Assembly (NCBI GenBank): GCA_020091685.1
Contig: CM034603.1
Location: 22,066,595-22,130,594 of the forward strand
Direction of reading: 5' to 3'
DNA: 64,000 nucleotides
Origin: Lutjanus erythropterus
Taxonomy: Eukaryota; Chordata; Actinopteri; Lutjaniformes; Lutjanidae
Shown: positions 45,225 through 59,452 of the stretch, in pieces
How positions within the stretch are numbered: the first letter of the stretch is position 1
Layout: every line of letters begins with the position of its first letter
Translations under genes and position numbers: made by a program
Notes under the pieces: model-generated
What the model was told of the DNA's origin: nothing
Databases searched by the model: none
What the model saw: only the letters and a program-made list of their open reading frames with translations

Positions 45225-45960
45225 AGTTAAAGGGATAATTTCTCAAGTGGGGTAGAATGAAGTACTTATACATAGTCAGTGTATTACCAACAGTAGATGG
45301 TGATCACCATGTCCCCAGTTTGGAAAAGCAGCAGGAGTACCAGTAGCTAGCTAGCTGTAGCAAGCTAAACAATGTACTGCTGTGGACAGGGTTAGCAGCA
45401 AAACATATTTTAGCCACCTAAATAATAGCCATCAGATAGCCTTTTCCGATGGGAAACCATCATTATATAAGTCAAATATTGCTCTCTCCCAAACAACCAA
45501 ACTCCTTTGACAAAAACACAAATTTTATCTTGGAGAACACAGGACTTGCTGGTCTACCAGTGCCTCAAACCATTAGTTTGTCCGTGTTATTGTGTGACTT
45601 CTGTCACTCCAAACTAACCCTTTAGAACTTCAAAGTCACATAATAACACAAACTAACAAATTGAACTTGCCACCAGTAGAAGAGCAAGTCCCATGTTCTG
45701 TGAGGTAAAATCACTGATTTAGCCAGTGGAGTTTGGTTAGATTGGAGAGAGTGACATTTGGCTCATATTACAGCAGGTTCCCATCGGAAAAGGCTGTATG
45801 ATGGCAAAATAAAGTGGCAAAAATATTCTAAATAGATTGCATACTTAAACTGATAGTGATTTCTTAGGTGGTTAAAATATGCTTTGGTGCTGCAGCAGTA
45901 CACATGGATAAGTATATTTCATAGAACACCACTTCAAAAAACCTGTGCTATCCCTTTAAG
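45225..45960. repeat. palindromic AAAGGGATA element, full length
   Basis: Left end TTAAAGGGATAATTTCTCAA, right end GTGCTATCCCTTTAA. Inner inverted words include CACCTAAATAATAGCC / CTTAGGTGGTTAAAAT and CCGATGGGAAACC / GGTTCCCATCGG. Related copies: 57092-57962, 62369-62787 and the start of one at 63986. Confidence 0.88.
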
Positions 45961-48400: not shown

Positions 48401-48688
48401 GTTATAAATTGGTCCATTTTGACAGTCTACATGATGGCTTTTTAAAATTCCCTACAAACCCTAAATGTAACAGTAAGAGGACAGCAGGCCCATTGAGTCT
48501 ACACGTCCATCTTCATCATTTGTCATTGACAGCCGCAGGGGGTAGTCTTCACAGCCAAGCCAACAGATGTGGCATTAGGCCTCTCTTGCCAGAGTAGTGA
48601 CATAATTTGTGAACAGGCCAGTACGTTTTGATTTCTAATAATAAAACAGCTTCCTGGTCCAACAACAACACAGAGGTACACAACCTAC

Positions 48689-49202
48689 CGAGCAGCAGCA
48701 GCCGATGCGTCTGTTTATACTCCCGTTTGAGCTCCTTCAGCGCCCTGTCAATATTCTTACTGACTTTCTTCGCCTCCTTCTCGGCCTCCTTCTCCTCCAC
48801 CAGCAATTTGTCCCAGTTTTTCTGCTTTTGGGTGCTTGTCTTTTGAAGCAGCTGTAAGCGTCGGCCGCGGTCCTTCCCCGTCCCCTTACCGCTACCTCCA
48901 CCTCCGCCGCCGCCGCCACCGCCTCCTCCTCCGCCGCCGCCTCCGTTCTGTATGAGCACACCGTCGGTGCCGGTGTCTCCACGGCGGTGCTCCCCGGCCG
49001 GGAGCCTGGCAGGGTCCCCGGGGCGCACCGGGCCGCGTAGCGACGAGCTCTCCCCGCATCCCCCGGTGTCCTCCTGGCGAGCTCCCCCAGCGCGGGTCGG
49101 TACGGCGGCGTCTGGAGGCTGGTCGGAGTCCGAGGTAGCGTTGGAGATAGAGCCGCTCAGGTCCCCGAAGAGCCGGGGACGCAAACTGTAGCACAGCCCC
49201 AT
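48689..49202 (-). CDS. gnal: gnal exon 1a, XL-type (long) first exon of G-alpha-olf
   Basis: Encodes the 171-residue N-terminus of the long G-alpha-olf form plus the first base of the shared Gly codon. It begins MGLCYSLRPRLFG, as known XL-G-alpha-olf proteins do. It continues through a low-complexity segment rich in Gly, Pro and Arg, including 17 consecutive Gly codons (about 48899-48949), and ends in a charged helix with EEKEAEKEAKKVSKNIDRAL and QTHRLLLLG, matching the family's alpha-N helix. The start at 49202 is chosen for the MGLC match and its good context (A at -3, G at +4). The donor, read on the minus strand, is CTCG|GTAGG. The exon is much richer in CpG than its surroundings, so it probably sits in a CpG-island promoter. 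Cys4 after MGLC is a candidate lipidation site (inference). The poly-Gly tract is likely to vary in length. Confidence 0.9.
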
Positions 49203-50249
49203 GTTGAAACCAATATTTGTCTGTGAATGTGATTTTTCATAAATTAAAATATCAAAAAAATCGCGGTTGCGCCACCAGCCCTAACGAGCCATCGTTACAT
49301 TGGAGCTCCAGCGGTGCGATCTAAGTCCGGATTTGAGCGGAAAATGTGAATGAATTATGCTCCGACATTTGCTATATGTCATTTTGCATTTTCCCCAGTC
49401 AGCCTTCGCTTCGTAGTTAGTGGATCACCTGATCCTTTAGTGGACACTGCGGGTCCATCTTACCGTAAGTAACCAAAAGCACAACCTTGGAAAAAAAACT
49501 CGGCTATCCGCTGCGCAGACAGTCAACAATCTGACTGCACAGTTGTTAGGTGCAATGCACGGCACGTCATGTTACTACAGTATGGCCATTTCGAGAATGC
49601 TGGTCATGATTTTCATTCCTCACATTTCATGCCTGCATGTCTAAAGACACCTACCGCTCTGTAGATAGTGAACCTGCTCCCTATTATCACACAAATGACT
49701 CACTGCTCTTTCTTTATTTACAGGCTGTGATTGAGCTCAATAAATAGGCCTATTATTGAAAATGGAAAAGAAAAATTAAATAATATTTAAACTTCTAACA
49801 GTTTTTAGTTGATTCAAACACAGACAATTATTATCATTATAGGCATTATTGTGTCTGCTTTAACCAGACCAATTTACACAAACTGGGATTGGGCAGGGGT
49901 TGATTACATGTAATTGGGATTACATAATAAGATTACAAAGAAATGTAACTGTAGATCCTTCGGGAAAGGCGTAGTTTTAATAAAGTCACACATTATATCA
50001 GTGTAGGAATTACTGTGTCTGCTTTATTCAGAACAGTTTACACATATGACCAGGGTTGGGCAGTAATTGATTACAGGTAATCAGGATTATGTAAACAGAT
50101 TACAAAAATTGACATGTAATTTGTATTCAGTGACTGACTACATTTAAAAGTAAACTCCAACTCTGCATATGCCTGATACCATTTGTTTAAATCAGCCTAG
50201 TATAATTTTTTTATATCAGCCATCTGATTATTTATTTAAATGAATGTGA

Positions 50250-53505: not shown

Positions 53506-53606
53506 ATGAACCGGTACACCACGCTGAAGCAGCTGGGGGACGGCACGTATGGCAGCGTGTTCCTGGGCAAGAGCAACGAGACTGGGGAGCTGGTGGCCAT
53601 AAAGAG
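53506..53606 (+). CDS. mak: mak coding exon 1 (start, glycine-rich loop)
   Basis: Encodes [20 protein letters not shown] onward through GELVAIK plus two bases of Arg34. It contains the GxGxYGxV nucleotide-binding loop and the VAIK lysine (Lys33). The ATG at 53506 is fixed by the family's conserved MNRYTT start, although the frame is open further upstream. The donor is AAAGAG|GTGAGT. A short out-of-frame upstream ORF (53438-53479) precedes it if that sequence is in the mRNA. Confidence 0.95.
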
Positions 53607-55728: not shown

Positions 55729-55783
55729 GATGAAGAGGAAGTTTTATTCTTGGGATGAGTGTTTGAATCTAAGAGAGGTGAAG
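55729..55783 (+). CDS. mak: mak coding exon 2
   Basis: 55-nt exon encoding [18 protein letters not shown] after completing Arg34. [17 protein letters not shown] is the alpha-C helix signature of MAK/CILK1 kinases; the Glu of REVK pairs with Lys33. Acceptor CCTCAACAG|G, donor GTGAAG|GTGAGA. Confidence 0.95.
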
Positions 55784-56178: not shown

Positions 56179-56300
56179 TCACTGAAGAAGCTGAACCATG
56201 CCAATGTGGTGAAACTGAGGGAAGTCATCAGAGAAAACGACTACCTCTACTTTGTCTTTGAGTACATGAAAGAAAACCTCTACCAGCTCATGACAGAAAG
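56179..56300 (+). CDS. mak: mak coding exon 3
   Basis: 122-nt exon encoding [20 protein letters not shown], then [20 protein letters not shown] and two bases of Arg93. It covers strands beta4-beta5, the hinge (EYM) and alpha-D. Acceptor ATTAACAG|TCA, donor GAAAG|GTAAGA. It ends in phase 2 and can join either of the two following alternative exons, each of which begins with the base completing an Arg codon (AGA or AGG). Confidence 0.95.
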
Positions 56301-56463: not shown

Positions 56464-56543
56464 AAACAAGTTGTTCCCTGAGTCAGTCGTCAGAAACATG
56501 ACATTTCAGATATTACAGGGACTGTCCTTTATTCATAAACATG
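56464..56543 (+). CDS. mak: mak coding exon 4a (canonical alternative)
   Basis: 80-nt exon encoding [20 protein letters not shown] then SFIHKH and the first base of Gly. It corresponds to the family-standard NKLFPESxIRNIMYQILQGLxFIHKHG segment (alpha-E helix leading to the catalytic loop). Acceptor TTTTTGCAG|A, donor CATG|GTAGGT. A paralogous copy of the exon lies 392 nt downstream. Using both copies, or neither, shifts the frame to an early stop. Confidence 0.93.
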
Positions 56544-56935
56544 GTAGGTGACTGCAGACTGAAGAAAAACTGACTCTGATGTCTTTTCTGTCTCATGAAA
56601 TGCTGTGTCTTGTGTGTCTTGGTATAAATAGTCCATAATTGAGTAAACAGAAAACAACGTATCTACGTTTGAAAAATATATGAATGCTGGACAGCTTATA
56701 AGACATCAGGCATCACAGCCAAGAATGACTCACTTCTCCAACGGCCTGAGTGAGAAGAGGAGGTGTGAATGGTACCACAGCTTAGCTGAACAAGTTTTTA
56801 GCACTGTTTTTAGTGCTTGTGGGTGCTGGTGTCATTCCCACTTCAGCGAGGCATGATTATTTGAATAGTGTTTTATTTGTTTTTCACTCTTTCACTCTTT
56901 CTTTCCTTTGTCTTTTACTACTTTGCCACTGCCAG

Positions 56936-57018
56936 GGAAGATAAGATGTTTTCTGAAAATGAGATAAGGAACATTCTGTTTCAAGTCTTGTCTGGCTTAG
57001 CATTTGTGCATAAGCATG
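56936..57018 (+). CDS. mak: mak coding exon 4b (duplicated, predicted mutually exclusive alternative)
   Basis: 83-nt exon encoding EDKMFSENEIRNILFQVLSG then LAFVHKH, one codon longer than exon 4a, with the same entry and exit phases. It matches 4a at 14 of 26 aligned residues, keeping the hydrophobic core of alpha-E (RN, FQ, L, GL, F, HKH) and changing exposed, mostly acidic positions. It has a strong pyrimidine tract (about 56877-56920), acceptor CACTGCCAG|G and donor CATG|GTAAGA. Skipping both copies gives a stop in exon 5, and including both gives a TAA about nine codons into 4b. The intact frame, good splice sites and conserved core argue against a decayed pseudo-exon. Expression is not shown by sequence. 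Confidence 0.85.
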
Positions 57019-58878
<1,860 letters not shown>

Positions 58879-59050
58879 GTACCGAGCCCCAGAGGTTCTG
58901 CTAAAGTCGAACTCCTACAGCTCGCCCATCGACATCTGGGCCGTGGGATGCATCATGGCGGAGCTCTACACACTCAGACCACTGTTCCCTGGCAACAGCG
59001 AAGTGGACGAGATCTTCAAGATCTGTCAGGTGTTAGGAACGCTGAAGAAG
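58879..59050 (+). CDS. mak: mak coding exon 6
   Basis: 172-nt exon encoding [40 protein letters not shown] and [17 protein letters not shown]. It holds the P+1 loop/APE motif and the [11 protein letters not shown] alpha-F segment. Acceptor TTATCACAG|G, donor AAGAAG|GTGAAC. GTLKK replaces the usual GTPKK, a mild substitution. Confidence 0.95.
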
Positions 59051-59284: not shown

Positions 59285-59452
59285 TCAGACTGGCCTGAGG
59301 GCTACAACCTGGCTACCTCGATGAACTTCCGCTTCCCAAAGTGTGTCCCCGCCAGCCTCAGATCCCTGATCCCCAATGCCAGCAATGAAGCGATCACTCT
59401 GATGAAAGACATGCTGCAGTGGGACCCTGAGAAAAGGCCGAGCGCCGCTCAG
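59285..59452 (+). CDS. mak: mak coding exon 7
   Basis: 168-nt, phase-0 exon encoding [40 protein letters not shown] and [16 protein letters not shown]. This is the C-lobe with the WDPxKRP Arg that closes the kinase fold. Acceptor CCACATCAG|TCA, donor GCTCAG|GTGCAT, a weaker than usual donor. Confidence 0.93.

Follow-up and report, generated by a model that had tools for sequence, protein, structure and literature searches.

The mak gene of Lutjanus erythropterus contains two tandem versions of its fourth coding exon, 4a and 4b, which encode alternative forms of the segment preceding the HRD loop of the kinase domain. We consider it likely that the two exons are an old, mutually exclusive homologous pair that predates a duplication of mak, switches the surface of helix alpha-E, and is used in different cell types. 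The evidence comes from the exons themselves, from a second mak gene that carries the same pair, and from the pattern of substitution between the two genes.

Two tandem versions of exon 4 in mak

The stretch of DNA analyzed here (the window, 64,000 nucleotides) is part of contig C13, and a MAK-type kinase gene starts within it at position 53506 on the forward strand. Coding exon 1 (53506..53606) is open in frame and ends at a GT donor; it is followed on the same strand by exon 2 (55729..55783) and by exon 3 (56179..56300), the upstream partner common to both versions of exon 4. Exon 4a (56464..56543) is 80 nt long and is of the type also found in cilk1. Exon 4b (56936..57018) is 83 nt long and encodes EDKMFSENEIRNILFQVLSGLAFVHKH, which is one residue longer than the 4a peptide, the extra residue standing at its start. 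Exon 5 (58144..58276) is the common downstream partner, and exons 6 (58879..59050) and 7 (59285..59452) complete the part of the gene that was read.

The original prediction had described 4a and 4b as exons of 80 and 83 nt lying 392 nt apart, which begin and end in equal phases and agree at 14 of 26 residues, and each of these values, coordinates included, was reproduced. Both exons have AG/GT splice sites. It had also stated that a transcript with both exons reaches a TAA nine codons into 4b and that one with neither soon meets a stop in exon 5. This was borne out as well, the latter stop falling after four residues of exon 5. The resemblance of 4b to 4a is not a matter of chance, because the 4a peptide scored 90 at 4b when compared with the introns of this gene, against a maximum of 45 in 100 shuffles (ungapped, BLOSUM62; introns from exon 1 to about 60550, shuffled in two-base blocks).

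Either exon yields a recognizable kinase domain. The Pfam Pkinase model (PF00069) gave 258.7 bits with 4a and 258.1 bits with 4b, and a second kinase model went from 131.1 to 128.6 bits. The gene reads TDY in the activation loop, across exons 5 and 6, which we take to be the motif of MAK (RCK group, CMGC kinases). The mak genes on C13 and C21 read NFRFPK/NFRFPQ, presumably the MAK form, whereas a related gene on C16 (L010) reads NFRWPQ, presumably that of CILK1. An ELO-family gene lies some 20 kb from the C16 kinase gene, and human CILK1 adjoins ELOVL5. From this motif and this neighbor the C16 gene was taken as cilk1. It has a 4a-type exon only, and the introns flanking that exon (101 and 100 nt) are too short to hold a second one.

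Two other features of the window were seen in passing. Repeat-like fragments occur in the intron after 4b (57461-57635), at 45413-45762, and on C13 outside the window; several places on C21 resemble them, including one within intron 1 of its mak gene. The corresponding intron of the C21 gene showed no copy of the fragment that follows 4b. On the reverse strand, the frame open over 48549-49280 encodes a long run of glycines and then a segment resembling the N-terminal helix of a G-protein alpha subunit; a Pfam search with this frame gave no match.

A second mak gene with the same pair

A genome-wide search with the 27-residue 4b peptide found six places, namely two 4b exons, three 4a-type exons (those of two mak genes and of cilk1), and one weak match (C21 at 28.4 Mb, 44%, E 0.04). 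The best match besides 4b itself was on C21, at 89% identity, and a search with the 4a peptide gave five places, among them the 4a partner on C21. A search of viral and prokaryote contigs with a DNA pattern for 4b returned 0 matches in each, as expected of collections without vertebrate genomes.

The structure of the C21 mak gene was read from 9.9 kb around the 4b match (L009). Exon 4a lies at L009:3709-3788 and exon 4b at L009:4215-4297, in the same order, phase and length as on C13, and the exon lengths of the two genes are the same throughout (101, 55, 122, 80 or 83, 133, 172, and 168 nt). The C21 versions share 16 of 26 residues. In both mak genes the 4a and 4b lengths differ by a multiple of three with like phases, and on C21, too, the frame is kept with either exon alone and lost with both or neither. 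The stops come later than on C13, in exon 5 when both exons are included and in exon 6 when neither is.

The two mak genes also share a neighbor. Three matches exceeded the cut-off of the TMEM14 model (PF03647); all of them immediately follow the mak genes of C13 and C21, and near cilk1 there is a weaker similarity to the C13 tmem14. The two mak genes thus look like duplicates of a chromosome segment, with tmem14 the one neighbor recognized as common to C13 and C21 in the stretches compared. The teleost whole-genome duplication is most likely their source. Matching introns of the two genes share short matches only, of 9 to 31 nt. The best of them (E 0.008) is 16 nt long and lies in intron 3, the longest (31 nt, E 0.20) lies in the pyrimidine tract preceding 4b, and the few others measure 9 to 16 nt. 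Both mak duplicates have kept both exons.

Residues exchanged by the swap

The 4a type (three genes) and the 4b type (two genes) are told apart by seven positions, of which six are fixed on both sides. From 4a to 4b the changes are L>M, P>S, S>N, V/A>E, I>V, Q>S, and I>V. Net charge falls from +2 to -1 on C13 and from +3 to 0 on C21, and the extra residue at the start of 4b is acidic, so the earlier suggestion that 4b is the more acidic version holds in the second gene also. The swap would replace almost the whole of helix alpha-E together with the end of the alpha-D/alpha-E loop; the catalytic loop would stay as it is, and surface residues would change.

To place these changes on a known structure, positions were counted by hand, ungapped and anchored on the HRD motif (ERK2 Asp147), along the ERK2 sequence. 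On this count the V/A>E position corresponds to ERK2 His123 and the Q>S position to ERK2 Arg133. Passages of a study of ERK2 docking describe side chains of Gln117 and His123 that contact the backbone of the docking peptide, hydrophobic contacts with alpha-E and the beta7-beta8 loop, and an upper pocket of Glu81, Tyr126, Gln130, and Arg133 (PMC11982978). Five of these contacts fall within the exon (Gln117, His123, Tyr126, Gln130, and Arg133); two change with the swap, and the other three positions (K, N, and Q in mak) are the same in 4a and 4b. By analogy with this related kinase, mak exon 4 would cover part of a docking groove, and the positions of the exchanged residues suggest that 4a and 4b may act as a surface switch. 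The two products would have equal kinase activity and present different faces to docking partners or substrates, in different cell types.

It is rather unlikely, to our mind, that 4a and 4b are a true exclusive pair whose products bind in nearly the same way, the choice serving mainly to tune expression or stability between tissues. The catalytic loop does lie outside the exon, and three of the seven separating changes (L>M, I>V, and I>V) are conservative. However, near-equivalent forms sit poorly with the V/A>E change, the additional acidic residue, and a charge shift of three units in both genes, and the two types have stayed distinct, with each conserved.

Selection on exon 4b and its age

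We compared the C13 and C21 genes codon by codon, with kappa fixed at 2 and w found by grid search; the comparison is of two genes, with 26-27 codons per version of exon 4. For 4b, 24 of 27 residues are identical even as pS reaches 0.73 (dS 2.85, dN 0.047), giving a dN/dS of 0.04 (95% 0.005-0.15) and a 2dlnL against w=1 of 24.4. Exon 4a has 22 of 26 residues identical, a dN/dS of 0.07, and a 2dlnL of 18.8, and the six constant exons pooled have 215 of 247 residues identical with a dS of 1.94 and a dN/dS of 0.05. Exon 4b is thus under constraint similar to that on the other kinase exons, and its silent sites are near saturation. Silent divergence is uneven along the gene, with dS of 0.49 in exon 2, 0.77 in exon 3, and at least 1.15 in the others.

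Because the C21 gene keeps the same pair, the pair is old and probably predates the duplication of mak. Each mak 4a matches the cilk1 exon at 20 of 26 residues, compared with 14 to 16 of 26 between 4a and 4b of mak. With so large a distance between types that are each kept, 4b must either be very old or have diverged rapidly when it was new and been conserved from then on. Segments of CDK1 and CDK3 share 8 to 11 of 26 residues with the 4a type and 6 to 9 with 4b, which weakly favors 4b as the derived form. The order of events would then be a tandem duplication of exon 4, followed by duplication of the gene and by retention of both forms as protein-coding alternatives in each daughter.

This order would not hold if the two mak genes arose from a later segmental duplication, or had been subject to gene conversion, in which case 4b would be much younger. 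The low dS of exons 2 and 3 and the single neighbor recognized as common to C13 and C21 lend this some support. Yet dS is about 1.9 over the pooled constant exons and 2.9 in 4b, introns retain only the short matches given above, and recent conversion would have homogenized the silent sites. We therefore regard a young 4b as improbable.

More improbable still is that 4b is a poison exon, one that frameshifts the message when joined to 4a and lowers MAK levels by nonsense-mediated decay without a protein that contains 4b alone. Double inclusion does bring in an early stop in either gene, within 4b after nine codons on C13 and in exon 5 on C21. However, phase-matched ends and constraint on the protein are not required of a poison exon, and 4b keeps its 83 nt, its phase, and its amino acids, with a swap of 4a for 4b that barely alters the kinase-domain score. 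The mark of a poison exon chosen for this analysis was an absence of coding constraint when the exon is included alone, and 4b is constrained in that state (w 0.04, phase kept). Exon 4b could nevertheless act both as a coding alternative and as a poison exon.

That 4b is an unused relic or dead copy of exon 4 is hardly credible: the zebrafish cDNA study, in the portion available, does not mention it (PMC11273301), but its splice sites and frame are intact in two genes despite the near-saturation of its silent sites, and neutrality (w=1) is rejected (2dlnL 24.4). The original prediction had argued against a dead copy, and the intact, in-phase C21 copy with its 24 of 27 shared residues and dN/dS of 0.04 supports it.

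How the splice choice might be made

Under the reading that we prefer, an exclusive coding pair, each pre-mRNA would take either 4a or 4b, and transcripts with both or neither would be frameshifted and hence destroyed or truncated. The reading frame would in this way enforce the choice, and the loss of frame with both or neither suffices for exclusivity. The mutual exclusivity claimed at the outset thus stands as a property of the reading frame only, in both mak genes.

Two further mechanisms of exclusion were set aside. The donors of exons 3, 4a, and 4b are gtaaga, gtaggt, and gtaaga in both mak genes; they look ordinary and do not fit the U12 consensus, and incompatibility between U12- and U2-type sites is not indicated. 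Steric exclusion by a distant branch point, described elsewhere as a cause of exon exclusivity (PMC1431707, in part), was judged on the length of the AG-free zone and is likewise not indicated. The zones before 4b are 65 nt on C13 and 84 nt on C21, short of the 100 nt or more that would bring a branch point close to the upstream exon; the intron between 4a and 4b is 392 nt long on C13 and 426 nt on C21. Two exon 3 acceptors have zones of 77 and 73 nt, and 4b is not singled out.

The acceptor of 4b is preceded by a pyrimidine-rich tract (56871..56935), with 83% C/T in the 60 nt upstream of the AG and no further AG for 65 nt. When the 20 acceptors in the three kinase domains are ordered by pyrimidine content, the two of 4b take the top places (0.85 and 0.83; the third has 0.75), and they do so again for PTB-like words (13 and 12, against 8 for the third). 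A given pair takes the top two places at random with odds of 1 in 190, a figure to be read with the fact that the feature was picked after the sequence had been viewed. In a background set, 7 of 17,024 YAG sites reach the 4b values in all three tract features, a descriptive count, as it was the 4b acceptors that supplied the thresholds. Repression of 4b by a PTB-type protein bound at this tract, with release where the repressor is low, is a reasonable guess from these features. Rbfox, TAG (Musashi), Nova, and QKI-like words were also counted in introns of the two mak genes (three each) and of cilk1 (two), and nothing striking was seen by eye.

Relation to known exon pairs and significance

The closest known system is that of exons 6a and 6b of JNK1/JNK2 (MAPK8/9), likewise a mutually exclusive pair inside a CMGC kinase domain. 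The JNK exon lies nearer the C-lobe, past the activation loop, whereas the mak exon encodes alpha-E, before the HRD loop. The JNK forms are listed as differing in substrate binding (in part of PMC8699841), and their use is described as tissue-specific, with exclusivity arising from interlocked U12-type and U2-type sites (PMC8329584, in excerpt). The mak donors, in contrast, look ordinary, and exclusivity would come from the frame. A homologous exon swap is likewise known in a different but related kinase gene, MAPK14 (p38alpha), for which passages of PMC4465641 report solved structures of both forms. FynB and FynT of FYN also arise from mutually exclusive tandem duplicated exons and differ in binding affinity (PMC9741552, in the portion available), but FYN is a tyrosine kinase and its exons span the SH2-kinase linker and the N-terminal part of the kinase domain.

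Zebrafish mak has been cloned, with 15 exons and two isoforms that differ in exon 14, and in the available text of that study no alternative within the kinase domain was seen (PMC11273301). Exon 14 is a single skipped exon and not a duplicated kinase-domain exon like 4a/4b. One of the two versions may be rare, stage-specific, or lost in zebrafish. MAK and CILK1 are not named in the main text of PMC9741552, nor are MAK, CILK1, and ICK in PMC5740500 or MAK and ICK in PMC4465641. Judged by title or the start of the abstract among the matches listed, no mak exon pair of this type was found in the open-licence literature, and a search of literature text for the peptide strings gave a chance match only, in a 1954 paper. 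The kind of system is known from JNK 6a/6b, but an example in MAK, or one located at helix alpha-E, appears to be undescribed in the open-licence literature searched.

More tentatively, MAK of ray-finned fish may be two kinases from one gene, with a switch that arose before the teleost duplication, was kept in both daughters, and exchanges the docking face between, for example, photoreceptors and sperm or multiciliated cells; we put this forward as possible and somewhat doubtful. It is speculation that the switch could bear on the contrast between mak mutants of zebrafish and mouse. Axoneme formation is impaired in the former, whereas the axoneme is elongated in the latter, as parts of PMC11273301 relate. 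The stop mutation of the zebrafish mutant precedes exon 4 and would abolish the two forms together.

MAK mutations cause human retinitis pigmentosa, and zebrafish mak mutants serve as a model of that disease (in passages of PMC11273301). If fish do make MAK with two surfaces, rescue constructs and knockouts must state which form they concern. For the evolution of splicing, the retention of both exons in both mak duplicates contrasts with a case, described in part of PMC9741552, in which gene duplicates each retain a different exon of a pair. For the RCK kinases, the exon pair would offer a natural, conserved exchange of one helix with which to probe docking at alpha-E.
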